A DNA stretch of 15,587 bases from Candidatus Parcubacteria bacterium. GTDB lineage: Bacteria > Patescibacteriota > Patescibacteriia > PEXW01. The position numbers and the translations under genes are program-made. Every line of letters begins with the position of its first letter. The stretch's first letter is position 1. Positions 193 through 6,101 of this stretch are shown here, piece after piece. A model generated the notes under the pieces. It was given only the letters and a program-made list of their open reading frames with translations. It was not told the origin of the DNA and searched no databases. The stretch spans positions 1-15,587 of the forward strand of contig QZJU01000007.1 of assembly GCA_003597955.1 (NCBI GenBank), in the 5' to 3' direction.

Positions 193-519
193 CTACCAAG
201 TACGACCAAAAGTCTTTCCGACCTGGTTGTATTTGGGTTGGCAACGTTTGATCTCTGATGCCTCAAAGTCGTCAGCTTCTTTGACGGAATCACAGGCGCG
301 GTACCCAAAATGGGTAACGTCAGGCCAGTTGTCATCCTGAAGATGCGTCAATAATCGCGCACGCATTCCGCCTTCACCCGTCCCTTTACCGATATAAAGC
401 GGTTTAAGGGCGCCCGGCTGGGTAGGAATACCGCAGTAGTAAACACCTATTGCGGTGGAATTCCACTCAGAAATGACCTTCTGGCTGTAAACGTAGTTGC
501 CCTGGTAATCGTGAATCAT
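193..519 (-). CDS. Small stand-alone GIY-YIG nuclease-fold protein
   Basis: A 108-residue protein made almost entirely of a GIY-YIG fold. Visible signatures are GVYYCG at about 25-30 (the GIY strand), LYIGKGTG at 41-48 (the YIG strand), R53/R55 and H59 on the following helix, acidic residues around E86/E89, and PKYNQVG near 95-101 with the conserved Asn. Proteins of this family cut DNA with one metal ion; single-domain members include homing, repair and mobile-element nucleases, and the sequence does not say which. I chose ATG 519 because an AAGG lies about 10 nt upstream; the in-frame TTG at 528 sits almost on top of that AAGG. The gene is divergent from the LexA-like/nuclease pair and shares its promoter region. 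It may be a third member of that module or an IS-associated passenger. Confidence 0.75.
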   Translation of the reverse strand: MIHDYQGNYVYSQKVISEWNSTAIGVYYCGIPTQPGALKPLYIGKGTGEGGMRARLLTHLQDDNWPDVTHFGYRACDSVKEADDFEASEIKRCQPKYNQVGKTFGRTW

Positions 520-560
520 GGAAATCAAGCCTTTTTAGTTAATTAGGGGATTGCAGGGTT

Positions 561-614: not shown

Positions 615-642
615 AGTATATGCCCCCCACTGTTCTTGTCAA
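615..642 (-). promoter_or_regulatory. Promoter of the GIY-YIG gene
   Basis: On the minus strand TTGACA (642-637) and TATACT (620-615) are separated by 16 bp, close to the sigma-70 consensus. The start site would be near 608, giving a leader of about 90 nt that contains the palindromes at 561-589. Confidence 0.6.
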
Positions 643-664
643 GTTTTACGGACTTATTGACAAG
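635..664. promoter_or_regulatory. Inverted repeat spanning both -35 boxes, candidate operator
   Basis: CTTGTCAA (635-642) and TTGACAAG (657-664) form a perfect 8-bp inverted repeat. The arm centres are 22 bp apart, about two helical turns, as expected for a dimeric repressor contacting one DNA face. Most of each arm is the -35 box itself, so part of the symmetry is explained by two consensus promoters; the outer AG/CT pairs are extra. GTTC-N7-GTTT (632-646) also lies here, one base from the alphaproteobacterial SOS-box pattern GTTC-N7-GTTC. Binding by the adjacent LexA-like protein is an inference. Confidence 0.45.
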
Positions 665-685
665 CATAATAAGACCTGTTATATT
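657..685 (+). promoter_or_regulatory. Promoter of the LexA-like/nuclease operon (leaderless)
   Basis: TTGACA (657-662), a 17-bp spacer and TATATT (680-685) make a near-consensus sigma-70 promoter. The expected start site is at about 692, and the start codon is at 694, so the mRNA should be leaderless or nearly so. This agrees with the absence of a Shine-Dalgarno sequence. Confidence 0.7.
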
Positions 686-693
686 TCAGACAT

Positions 694-1350
694 ATGCACA
701 CTATCCAAAGCAAGCTAATAGAGCTAGCCAAAAAACAAAATCTTGCCAAAATGACGCTTCGTGGCATGGCAAGCGCTATTGGTCTACCCAAAGCGTCCCC
801 ACAAATGATAAAACACCACCTTCTTCAAGTTCAGAAAAGGGGCTTTTTGACTATTGATAAAAGCCGAGGCCTTATGGCACGTTCCGGTACAAAACCTGGA
901 GTAGCCAACGGTCTAGTAAAAAAAACCTCGCACCTCTTTTCTATTCCGATTATTGGTACTGCTAATTGTGGGTCTGCCACTATTTTTGCAGAACAAAATT
1001 TTAAAGGATTTTTAAAGGTATCCAGTCGGCTTATCGGACGCTCATCGCCTAAAGGACTTTTTGCAATAAGAGCCGATGGTTCTTCAATGAATCGTGCTGA
1101 AATAAATGGAAAAAAAATTGAAGATGGTGATTACGTAATTATCAACAACGAAGACTGCTCTCCGAAAACAAAGGATGTGGTGTTAGCAATCATAGATGAT
1201 AAAGCAACAATAAAAAGATTTATTGAGGATCGTGCTAATGACCAAATAATTTTAAAAGCGGACTCCTCATTTGATTATGAACCAATTTATCTACATAGCG
1301 AGGATTCATTCACAATCAATGGAAAAGTAATTAGTGTTGTAAAAAAATAA
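694..1350 (+). CDS. LexA/UmuD-like S24 autoprotease transcriptional repressor
   Basis: A 218-residue protein with LexA layout. Residues about 1-55 form a winged helix; TLRGMASAIGLPKASPQMIK aligns with the LexA recognition region, ending in KRGFLTID. A linker leads to the S24 peptidase domain from about 84. The predicted self-cleavage bond is C92-G93 in IIGTANCGSATIF; Cys-Gly is the UmuD-type bond, where LexA has Ala-Gly. The nucleophile is S131 (DGSSMN) and the general base K174 (ATIKRF). Such repressors cut themselves when RecA-ssDNA filaments form, releasing their operators. Ser-Lys spacing is about six residues longer than in E. coli LexA. The nuclease gene follows after 10 nt, so it is likely co-regulated. 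It may be the cell's SOS regulator or a dedicated, phage-like repressor; the accessory location and AT-rich composition favour the latter. Confidence 0.85.
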   Translation: MHTIQSKLIELAKKQNLAKMTLRGMASAIGLPKASPQMIKHHLLQVQKRGFLTIDKSRGLMARSGTKPGVANGLVKKTSHLFSIPIIGTANCGSATIFAEQNFKGFLKVSSRLIGRSSPKGLFAIRADGSSMNRAEINGKKIEDGDYVIINNEDCSPKTKDVVLAIIDDKATIKRFIEDRANDQIILKADSSFDYEPIYLHSEDSFTINGKVISVVKK

Positions 1351-1360
1351 ATATTTCAAA

Positions 1361-2161
1361 ATGAAAGTGGAAGATACTATAAAAAACATTATTTCTAAAA
1401 GCGGTAACGACCTTCATATTCAGGTAGAAGAGATATTAAAACAAGGGAAGTGGAGCGTAACCTCGAGTCCCTACTATAATGATCCGGTTACTGGCATCCC
1501 CCGCGAAACTGATATCATCGCAAGAAAGGATTGGGATATCCACGACGACTTTGGCAGAAATAAAAGGGGTATGCTAAGAATTCGCCTTTTTATTGAATGC
1601 AAGTTTCTTTCAGATCCGATTGTCCTATGGCTAAAAGATAAAAATATCGACAAAGCAAAGGCATTAGCAAAAGACAATCCAATTCTTCGCGATAAAGAAG
1701 ACCATTACTTAACTGATACGAGTAAGATACCTAACAAAATTCACCATTATTTTGAAAATAATCAGGTAATAAATCAGTGGAGCAACAAAGACCACAAGGA
1801 CCCACTGTTCGAAGCGATGAGCGGTTGTTTAAATGCTTTTATATATTACCACCGCGCTGGTCTAGAAAACCATGCAGAAACAATTAACTACCCAATTATC
1901 ATTGTAAATGACCTTTCAAAACTGTATGGACGAGATAGAAGTCAGCTTGGCGCATCAGTAATAACAGATAACCAGCAATTAGAAACGTCATACTCATATC
2001 GTGAAGTCAATAACCAATATAAAATGCAGTATTTTTTAATTGATGTTGTTGGATATAATAAATTTAAAGATTTTTTATCAAAGCTAGAAAATAACGATAT
2101 TGATATTTTGCGGAGAATATTATATTGGCAATTAAATCCGATCAATCAGAATAATGATTGA
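1361..2161 (+). CDS. PD-(D/E)XK nuclease-like protein of unknown target
   Basis: A 266-residue protein with no recognised full-length family. Its N-terminal third looks like a restriction-endonuclease-like core: acidic E23/E24 on the first helix, GKWSVTSSPYYNDPVTG (29-45), the metal-binding E49-T-D51 at the start of a strand, then RLFIECKF (75-82) carrying E79-x-K81. This D...ExK arrangement is the signature of PD-(D/E)XK enzymes. The C-terminal half is Asn/Lys/Tyr-rich with no motif I can name. The ATG lies 10 nt after the repressor stop without a clear ribosome site, so translation may be coupled. No methyltransferase is in the window, so a standard type II restriction system is unlikely here. 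Candidates are a type IV-like or abortive defence nuclease, or a repair-linked enzyme kept off by the repressor. Base composition is AT-rich, suggesting transfer. Confidence 0.65.
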   Translation: MKVEDTIKNIISKSGNDLHIQVEEILKQGKWSVTSSPYYNDPVTGIPRETDIIARKDWDIHDDFGRNKRGMLRIRLFIECKFLSDPIVLWLKDKNIDKAKALAKDNPILRDKEDHYLTDTSKIPNKIHHYFENNQVINQWSNKDHKDPLFEAMSGCLNAFIYYHRAGLENHAETINYPIIIVNDLSKLYGRDRSQLGASVITDNQQLETSYSYREVNNQYKMQYFLIDVVGYNKFKDFLSKLENNDIDILRRILYWQLNPINQNND

Positions 2162-4277: not shown

Positions 4278-5027
4278 TTAAATTAATTGCGCAATCAATT
4301 GGTGAAATTTTTCGGGGTCCAGACTGGTGCCGCCGACCAAAACTCCGGAAATCGCATCCCCATCCACGAAACTGGCGACATTAATTTCATTTACGCTGCC
4401 GCCGTAAATAATGGGCACGCTTTCCGCGCCCGAGGGCAGAACTTCCCGCAAAACGCTGCGAATGAGTCTGGCCATTTCCCAAGCCTGTTCGGGTTCAATG
4501 GCTTGGCCTGTGCCTATGGCCCACACCGGCTCATAGGCGACAATCAAAGCCAAAGCAGGAATGTTAGAGAGTCTTTCCGTACCTTTCCTTACCTGTTCAA
4601 TGACGACCACTTCATGTTTTTGCGCTTTGCGCTCGTCAAAAGTTTCGCCCACGCACAAAACCGGAACAATATTGTGCGCCAAAGCCTGTTCGACCTTGCG
4701 GCTAATCTCGAAATCGGATTCTTTAAACCATTTTCGCCTTTCTGAATGTCCACACAGGACCAGCCGGCAACCCAAGTCCTGCAAAATTTCCATGGAAACT
4801 TCGCCAGTGAAAGCGCCTCGCTCTTCCCAATGAGCGTTTTGACTACCCCAAGCAACGCCCGTGCCTTCCAGCATTTGCGCAACCGTTGGAATGACCGGCC
4901 CGGCCGGGCAGAGCGTCACTTCCGCCTGTTTTAAAACTTCCAATTTACGCAAAAAAGTTCCCAAGTACACTTTAGCTTCTTGGCTGGTGATATTCATTTT
5001 CCAATTGCCGATTACAATGGGCTTCAT
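4278..5027 (-). CDS. tpiA: Triosephosphate isomerase
   Basis: A 249-residue (beta/alpha)8 enzyme that interconverts dihydroxyacetone phosphate and glyceraldehyde 3-phosphate. PIVIGNWKMN gives N8 and the catalytic K10. CGHSERR gives the electrophile His94. AYEPVWAIGTG gives the base Glu166 and the start of loop 6. YGGSVN (208-213) binds phosphate. I start at ATG 5027, where family similarity begins; an in-frame GTG at 5063 would add 12 residues unlike the family. With ATG 5027 the gap to the upstream carboxypeptidase gene is 42 nt, the largest in the directon. It is followed after 5 nt by fba. Confidence 0.97.
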   Translation of the reverse strand: MKPIVIGNWKMNITSQEAKVYLGTFLRKLEVLKQAEVTLCPAGPVIPTVAQMLEGTGVAWGSQNAHWEERGAFTGEVSMEILQDLGCRLVLCGHSERRKWFKESDFEISRKVEQALAHNIVPVLCVGETFDERKAQKHEVVVIEQVRKGTERLSNIPALALIVAYEPVWAIGTGQAIEPEQAWEMARLIRSVLREVLPSGAESVPIIYGGSVNEINVASFVDGDAISGVLVGGTSLDPEKFHQLIAQLI

Positions 5028-5069
5028 GCCTTTAGCATACTGCAAAATCGGCTTTTTCACCACTAAATA

Positions 5070-6101
5070 TCAGGTATTTTGGGTTTCCCAAACAAACGCG
5101 GAAAAGGCCCATTTTAACAAAGCCTCAGCATTCGCAAAGCGTTCGGCCGAAGACGGACTGCCCAAAAAGACCAGCACCAAACGATGACCTTGACGTTCAG
5201 CTTCGATGGCCAGATTATAGCCAGCTTCCTGCAAATACCCGGTTTTTGCGCCCAGGATTTCAAAATCCGTGTGGTTCAAAAGCTTGTTTGTATTCACGCT
5301 TCGAAAACTCGAGCCATTAAGCGAACGAAAATTATAGACCGGCAGTTTGCTGGCTTGGCTGATATTCGAATCCTGAAAAGCAACATGGGCGAGAATGGCC
5401 AAATCCAACGCCGAAGCCTTATTTCTCGGATCCAAGCCCGAGGGTTCGTATAGATCGGCAAATCTGGCGCCGGATTTCCTGGCAAAGGCCGTTAGTTTTT
5501 CCGCCAATATTTCCGAACCACCACTGATGAGCCGGCCCAGGGCAATGGCGGAATTATTCGCCGAACCGATCAAGGCTGTGTAGAGCAAATCTTTGTAAGT
5601 AATGCGTTCGCCCGCGGGCAGTTTTAAAGCGCTGATGGCGTCGCCCGGCTCGACCAATTCTTGACCGTCGGCGTTAAAATCATTCGGCACCCGGTAGACC
5701 GTATCGAGCTTGGCTTGGAATTGCAAAAAAGTGGCGGCAGTCACTAACTTGGTCAGACTGGCAATCGACCGCGGGCTTTCAGCGTCTTTGGCCCAAAGCA
5801 CGGTGCCGGAATCTGCGTCGATCAAAACTCCAGCCTGAACCTTCGGTTCTGACAGCATTGCCGAACCCGGCTTTAAAGTGGGCTGCTGGATAACCGAGGT
5901 TTGTTCGCCTGCGACCTGGCTGGAAATCGCCCGCGCCGCATTTTTGGCGCTGGGGTAAACCGCGAAATAATAAGCAAAAGCCACAACCGCGGAAATCACA
6001 CTGCTAAAAAGCAAAAATGCCAAACCCGCAAAAATCTTATTCCGGCTTTTTCGAATCGACTTTTTAGACGGCTTCAATTTTTTCTTGGGTCTGGGCGGCA
6101 T
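5070..6101 (-). CDS. D-alanyl-D-alanine carboxypeptidase-like penicillin-binding protein (S11)
   Basis: A 343-residue serine DD-peptidase of the S11 (DacA/DacF) type, which removes the terminal D-Ala from peptidoglycan stem peptides outside the membrane. A Lys/Arg-rich N-terminus (1-23) and one hydrophobic segment (about 24-48) make a signal anchor with the domain facing out. The three active-site motifs are S115-L-T-K118, S180-A-N182 and K286-T-G288, all in the expected order and spacing. PSGLDPRNKASALDLA is a typical family segment. The extra C-terminal domain of E. coli DacA is absent. The start at ATG 6101 overlaps scpB by 38 nt; a TTG at codon 9 would shorten the overlap but not remove it. 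Confidence 0.9.
   Translation of the reverse strand: MPPRPKKKLKPSKKSIRKSRNKIFAGLAFLLFSSVISAVVAFAYYFAVYPSAKNAARAISSQVAGEQTSVIQQPTLKPGSAMLSEPKVQAGVLIDADSGTVLWAKDAESPRSIASLTKLVTAATFLQFQAKLDTVYRVPNDFNADGQELVEPGDAISALKLPAGERITYKDLLYTALIGSANNSAIALGRLISGGSEILAEKLTAFARKSGARFADLYEPSGLDPRNKASALDLAILAHVAFQDSNISQASKLPVYNFRSLNGSSFRSVNTNKLLNHTDFEILGAKTGYLQEAGYNLAIEAERQGHRLVLVFLGSPSSAERFANAEALLKWAFSAFVWETQNT

Follow-up and report, generated by a model that had tools for sequence, protein, structure and literature searches.

Immune operons that are able to kill the cell require a safe trigger, and the best understood sensor of DNA damage is the LexA-type self-cleaving repressor. The defenses of Patescibacteria are poorly known. 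The locus described here, from an ultra-small bacterium, raises the question of whether these themes meet: Does a LexA-type S24 repressor gene located directly in front of a nuclease gene act as a damage-responsive switch for defense? The window, i.e., the whole stretch of DNA that was analyzed, is a 15,587-base contig, one of 21 in a 0.99-Mb genome that is 98.5% complete.

The gene pair and its two products

The two genes lie on the same strand and are separated by 10 nt (Table 1). Among the window ORFs, no second regulatory gene adjoins the S24 gene. The source genome contains about three S24-fold genes per Mb, and it encodes recA and a separate second LexA-like gene (L001). Past the nuclease stop, positions 2187–2225 harbor a hairpin, GCGCTG-TAAT-CAGCGC, with a run of T residues about 15 nt further on; the terminator scan did not call this hairpin.

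Table 1. Features of the S24–nuclease locus, in window coordinates
Feature	Position	Strand	Basis
Divergent promoter-like site facing the 193–528 ORF	615–643	−	−35 TTGACA 642–637, −10 TATACT 620–615; consensus scan 11/12
Putative operator region TGTCAAGTTTTACGGACTTATTGACA	637–662	+	Inverted GTCAA/TTGAC half-sites
Sigma-70-type promoter-like site, TTGACA-17 nt-TATATT	657–685	+	Consensus scan 11/12; just 5′ of the S24 start
S24 LexA-type repressor gene	694–1350	+	218 aa; winged helix ~1–63, autoprotease domain ~81–216
Predicted cleavage-bond codons, Cys92-Gly93	967–972	+	Alignment to LexA Ala84-Gly85; invariant in 23 relatives
Catalytic Ser131 codon	1084–1086	+	LexA alignment, family conservation
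Catalytic Lys174 codon	1213–1215	+	LexA alignment, family conservation
PD-(D/E)XK nuclease gene	1361–2161	+	266 aa; family absent from libraries searched
Glu49-x-Asp51 codons, nuclease core part 1	1505–1513	+	E49 and D51 invariant in 28 homologues
Glu79-Cys80-Lys81 codons, nuclease core E-x-K	1595–1603	+	E79 in 28/28, K81 in 27/28 (Arg in one)

The first-pass annotation of this DNA described the upstream product as an S24 repressor with an intact Ser131/Lys174 pair and a Cys92-Gly93 cleavage bond. Alignment to LexA places the bond and the catalytic pair at exactly these residues, all of which, together with D146, are unchanged in 23 of 23 family members. Pfam Peptidase_S24 matches residues 85–213 (E = 9e-19). 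The Pfam LexA_DNA_bind match, to residues 21–57, is weak, but the N-terminal winged-helix DNA-binding domain is present in the AlphaFold2 model (pLDDT 86), which combines it with an S24 fold. The best PDB matches of the model are to full-length LexA and span both domains, and RecA-bound LexA is also among the matches. Low-scoring phmmer matches to TIM-barrel HisF structures were rejected as spurious, being partial in coverage and unsupported by the model. With its Ser/Lys dyad and Ala/Cys-Gly-type scissile bond on an S24 domain, the protein is a predicted LexA-type S24 autoprotease repressor, and its self-cleavage is expected to be stimulated by RecA. Like the LexA and UmuD S24 autoproteases, it has the S24 domain, the Ser/Lys pair, and the position of the scissile bond, and, like them, it carries a winged helix. 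Unlike them, it has a Cys-Gly bond and an extra loop, SMNRAEINGKKIEDGD, after the catalytic serine, and it scores 80.4 bits against NCBIfam lexA, under the cut-off of 110.95 bits.

The downstream product was proposed to contain a D51...E79-x-K81 nuclease core, and here too the reading from the letters holds. Searches of Pfam, NCBIfam, PHROG, and PADLOC gave no convincing match, and a sequence search of the PDB gave no meaningful one. Genome searches, along with one scan of ~85,000 species using a profile from a 4-row alignment, yielded 28 near full-length homologues. Their hosts are mostly Patescibacteria, and also include Geothrix, Betaproteobacteria, Nitrospira, and a Woesearchaeote, a patchy distribution over several phyla. 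Beyond the core residues, D41, W31, and G15 are likewise invariant. An AlphaFold2 model built from the 28-homologue alignment has a mean pLDDT of 89.2. Foldseek found no nuclease match to it under E = 0.001. A second structural aligner ranks McrC (Z 7.8), XisH (6.8–6.9), and an Hjc-type resolvase (6.8) highest; AF1548, Can2, and BpuSI follow, and the list consists mostly of PD-(D/E)XK enzymes. Because Z values below 8 are moderate, it is the motif combined with the consistency of the match list that carries the assignment, rather than Z alone. In motif and model, the protein presents the D...(D/E)-x-K core on an alpha-beta-beta-beta-alpha-beta fold, and so the outcome named in advance as fatal, a predicted structure lacking the core, did not occur. 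PD-(D/E)XK membership suggests that the window protein would cleave DNA in a metal-dependent manner.

The nuclease shares its fold and its D...E-x-K core with McrC, Hjc, XisH, and other PD-(D/E)XK enzymes. It differs from these enzymes in having no sequence-family match and in possessing extra C-terminal strands plus a long helix, and from McrC also in that no McrB-type AAA+ partner adjoins it. We conclude that it belongs to a horizontally spread PD-(D/E)XK family that was missing from the family libraries searched and that is now described.

Nuclease neighborhoods and the missing methylase

Across homologue loci, the neighbors of the nuclease are often defense-like. Specifically, they include HsdM and HsdS (L015), a fused HSDR_N–N6 methylase with HsdS (L037 and its like), a DNA methylase and Shedu (L023), an EcoRI-type methylase (L024), and a KAP NTPase (L026); DUF4145 and DUF3644 proteins also occur. 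An S24 gene lies within ~5 kb at 8 of the 28 loci, in every case upstream and co-directional, and the S24 density of the window genome would predict roughly one such locus by chance. Thus, the coupling is not a chance one. On the nuclease tree, 6 changes are needed to account for S24 linkage, and well-supported branches force no fewer than 4 of these. The linkage, which four or more lineages possess, has therefore been gained or retained repeatedly. Moreover, at least three kinds of S24 protein occur at nuclease loci, a diversity that speaks for a functional link over shared descent alone.

Whether an S24 gene is conserved next to the nuclease had been put forward as a check on the pair, and the answer is mixed. 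The S24 gene does recur upstream, so the second outcome named as fatal, homologues never adjacent to S24 genes, did not occur either, but 20 of the 28 homologues have none in the flank examined, and where one exists, a methylase usually lies between. Only in the window and at L031 (gap of 11 nt) is the S24 gene directly 5′ of the nuclease gene. At L016, L036, L037, L038, and L039, the S24 gene is followed by a methylase gene, the nuclease gene, and then HsdS-like genes. At L041, a C5/N6 methylase and then a 401-aa protein come between the S24 gene and the nuclease. The BcgI-like/type I restriction–modification operons of L036–L039 resemble the window in having a homologous nuclease and an S24 gene in first position; they possess a fused HSDR_N–N6 methylase and HsdS, and the window has neither. 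The S24 proteins that head the HSDR_N–N6 methylase/nuclease/HsdS operons of L016 and L036–L039 form a second, more LexA-like clade, and several of the promoters of this clade have a AGTCGGGTATAAT-like sequence in common.

This arrangement suggests one alternative, namely that the window pair is a decayed restriction–modification locus, an S24–methylase–nuclease operon from which the methylase has been lost, leaving the repressor and a functionless relic nuclease. The intervening methylases of L016, L036–L039, and L041 are what such an ancestor would look like, and the window nuclease departs from several otherwise conserved family positions, e.g., I46, T50, N138, and G155. However, the catalytic residues and the reading frames of both genes are intact, the 10-nt junction contains no relic sequence, nuclease homologues with no adjacent methylase are common, and L031 shows the same bare pair with an S24 protein of another type. 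We therefore regard decay as unlikely. The L031 pair occupies positions 4380–5810 of its locus, and an 18-bp palindrome, GGTGTCCATTTGGACACC, is located between TTGACA and TATACT, 5′ of the likely S24 start.

The remark in the first-pass annotation that no methyltransferase accompanies the pair is true of the locus and can be extended. A genome search with PF02384 and PF01555 returned a single protein, apparently an RNA methyltransferase, and there were no matches to PF00145. Hence, the cognate DNA methyltransferase of a type II restriction–modification system is lacking at the locus and, with respect to these three Pfam families, in the genome. In a cell without a DNA methylase of these three major families, an unrestrained sequence-specific nuclease would pose a danger, a situation that fits tight control.

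Partners of the S24 subfamily

To place the repressor among its relatives, two profiles were run, both blind to neighboring genes: the first, from the window S24 protein and its L041 relative, on 379 genomes of the phylum, and the second, of 23 rows, on 285 genomes of the class. There are 44 S24 loci above 190 bits. A co-directional gene follows within 150 nt at 29 of these, and at two further loci a PemK gene or remnant was detected only by tblastn, giving 31 operon-forming loci. In 26 of the 31, the S24 gene stands at the promoter end of an operon containing a defense or toxin gene, where partners were classed by hand (Pfam or similarity to scanned relatives) up to four genes deep and the window locus is included. 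The first upstream genes, used as a control, are mostly housekeeping or unknown, with at most 7 of 42 defense-like (Fisher p ~1e-8, for loci that are not phylogenetically independent).

The partners are diverse. They comprise restriction–modification genes (L041, L081 with Vsr, L090, L145, L147, L146, L095, L155, and, with HsdR, L101), CBASS-type SMODS nucleotidyltransferases (L088, L149, L151, and L100), PemK (L082, L086, L087, L140, L142, L139, where it is broken, and L091, a remnant), caspases (L084 and L154), a ThsB-like TIR protein (L157), an OLD-like ATPase (L076), a TPR-PIN protein (L089), and the PD-(D/E)XK nuclease of the window. On the S24 tree, whose deep branches are weak, the partner classes require 17 changes, compared to a minimum of 8 and to 25.8 in shuffles, and the CBASS partner alone accounts for 5 changes among 5 rows. 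Partner classes are clustered on the tree, yet often change. The nearest relative of the window S24 protein, L148 (65% identity), precedes a different short ORF, and we reject conservation of the pair as a pair. The bare S24–nuclease pair is the exception, and the conserved entity is a partner-swapping subfamily of S24 controllers. A subfamily that is spread across Patescibacteria, changes partners, and stands first in many different defense and toxin operons is most aptly viewed as a LexA-type controller of the pathways beside it.

A second alternative is that the nuclease is an Hjc-like enzyme of DNA repair or recombination that is under damage control and has no role in defense. The folds closest to the model include those of Hjc and XisH, and control by a LexA-type regulator would be apt for a repair gene. 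Nonetheless, the nuclease is patchy, occurring in 6 of 379 genomes of the phylum, some of these matches being marginal, and being absent from a same-genus genome. Given this distribution and the defense-type neighbors of its homologues, and with related S24 proteins leading defense and toxin genes, we consider a repair function quite unlikely.

Very unlikely, in our view, is a third possibility, that the pair is the remnant of a prophage or mobile element, consisting of a CI-like repressor and a cargo nuclease. The S24 protein does match a PHROG "transcriptional repressor," one subfamily member (L076) resides on a viral contig, and in two same-family genomes the pair is not beside gapA. Against this, the window contains no phage genes, and gapA, fba-like, and tpiA-like genes lie downstream of the pair. 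No relative of the nuclease was found in the viral contigs searched with its profile, in the phage and plasmid collections searched with the window protein, in the plasmid collection searched with homologue L030, or in the phage and plasmid collections searched with L028. Most partners of the S24 subfamily, furthermore, are defense or toxin genes.

The PemK-linked S24 proteins (L082, L086, L087, L139, L140, L142, and L091) have in common a C-terminal tail of ~34 residues, ..DILKDLGPxSxEEYxYYxNL, that was not seen in other subfamily members. It is as if the repressor in these operons doubled as an antitoxin, and on account of this tail, inhibition at the protein level may occur within the subfamily. 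For the window, the corresponding idea, that the S24 protein directly binds and inhibits the nuclease, which self-cleavage then frees, is the least credible of those considered, since the protein ends one residue past the S24 domain and thus has no such tail, and the majority of nuclease homologues occur with no S24 gene.

Promoters and proposed control

The best promoter-like site on the strand of the two genes precedes the S24 gene, and the nuclease is therefore most simply transcribed from there. The sequence TGTCAA is present within 150 bp 5′ of 28 of 44 S24 genes, compared to 2.2 expected from shuffles, and in 9 of 244 control promoters of the same loci. A longer form, TGTCAAG[AT][AT]TTA[ACT][GT], has 8 copies before S24 genes, one of them at window position 637, and 0 elsewhere in 425 kb. 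Half-site spacing varies among S24 promoters, palindromic dyads are not clearly above shuffles, and no one palindromic operator shared by all of these promoters was found; strong enrichment is confined to the TGTCAA(G) half-site.

TGTCAA may be a promoter element rather than an operator because it is the reverse of a −35 box, divergent in many of the loci: for 47% of TGTCAA sites, a divergent −10 match lies at a suitable distance, compared to 6% in the background. In the window, the conserved TGTCAAG and the −35 of the divergent promoter-like site occupy the same place. Two promoters may be arranged back to back in this region, with a putative operator between or over them. The divergent site faces away from the S24 promoter-like site and toward a 111-aa ORF (193–528, minus strand) that resembles a GIY-YIG nuclease, with only a weak PHROG endonuclease match (E = 0.011). 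The 26-mer at the putative operator is unique in its own genome when up to 3 mismatches are allowed, although a shorter or variably spaced site could escape such a search. The window regulator therefore looks local; together with the separate LexA gene, the genome-unique operator-like site points to local rather than global control, unlike the regulon control of LexA.

Drawing on established LexA and PD-(D/E)XK biology, we propose that the pair is probably a locally controlled defense cassette, governed by a LexA-type repressor that RecA-stimulated self-cleavage releases. Specifically, the S24 protein would bind its own promoter and keep the two-gene operon at a low level. Upon DNA damage or invasion, RecA on single-stranded DNA would stimulate the S24 protein to cut itself at Cys92-Gly93. 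Cleavage would remove the DNA-binding half, allowing transcription of repressor and nuclease, and the released nuclease would cut DNA. Because no DNA methyltransferase of the three families was found, the nuclease is presumably either self-harming (abortive) or active on modified or foreign DNA, and would therefore have to be kept off. The layout, the promoter, the shared element, and the subfamily operons fit the derepressible defense unit that the first-pass annotation had suggested; another of its suggestions, repair, is less likely than defense. Evidence against the defense cassette is that an S24 gene is lacking near most nuclease homologues, that the L148 partner differs, and that some S24 subfamily members stand alone.

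Analogous controllers have been described. CapW/BrxR, CapH with CapP, and the new CapK with CapS are DNA-damage-activated controllers of adjacent immune operons (EMBO J, June 2026; PMC13373217). That work counts three trigger families, none of them of the LexA-type self-cleaving kind, and does not mention LexA or S24 (PMC13373217). As with the S24 subfamily, these regulators reside beside diverse immune operons, including CBASS and restriction–modification, and they are thought to release those operons upon DNA damage, as the window S24 protein would. The sensor differs, however. The Cap controllers consist of a WYL domain protein, an HTH repressor with a separate metalloprotease, or a STAS repressor with a GHKL kinase, whereas the window regulator is a single wHTH–S24 protein with predicted self-cleavage. 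It works, by our reading, like the Cap controllers and is not a member of their three families. RptR is similar in being a repressor that controls restriction–modification genes, and the paper on RptR mentions neither LexA, S24, SOS, nor self-cleavage (PMC12255303). A 2009 survey of toxin–antitoxin systems draws only an analogy between LexA and COG2856-Xre proteins (PMC2701414). Searches of the open-access literature turned up no account of S24 proteins that control adjacent immune operons in this way.

A broader reading, for and against which we are evenly divided, is that a single self-cleaving LexA-type protein constitutes a fourth class of immune-operon controller, in which RecA filaments switch exchangeable cassettes across Patescibacteria and the tail serves as an antitoxin in PemK operons. 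The cassettes may include CBASS, restriction–modification, caspase, TIR, PemK, and the solitary PD-(D/E)XK nuclease. If so, CBASS, restriction, and toxins in Patescibacteria would be directly coupled to the SOS signal. The S24 subfamily appears to be an interchangeable switch that senses damage and turns bacterial defenses on, and the subfamily combined with its promoter element provides a search handle for new defense genes downstream.

Several individual loci vary the arrangement. S24-headed operons with CBASS-type SMODS nucleotidyltransferases are found in five Patescibacteria (L105 in addition to the four loci above). In two genomes (L084:3941–5911 and L154:1529–3778), one operon encodes an S24 protein, a short protein that is TIR-like by eye and has no Pfam match, and a caspase-domain protein. 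At L101:1386–8416, the S24 gene is located between an HsdS-like gene and the HsdR gene of a type I restriction–modification locus, as though S24 control extended to the restriction subunit alone. Finally, a lone subfamily member at L103:7735–8361 has neither the catalytic serine nor the cleavage-bond cysteine (GHQMDKSE, NVNSGK), and it is perhaps a non-cleavable repressor.
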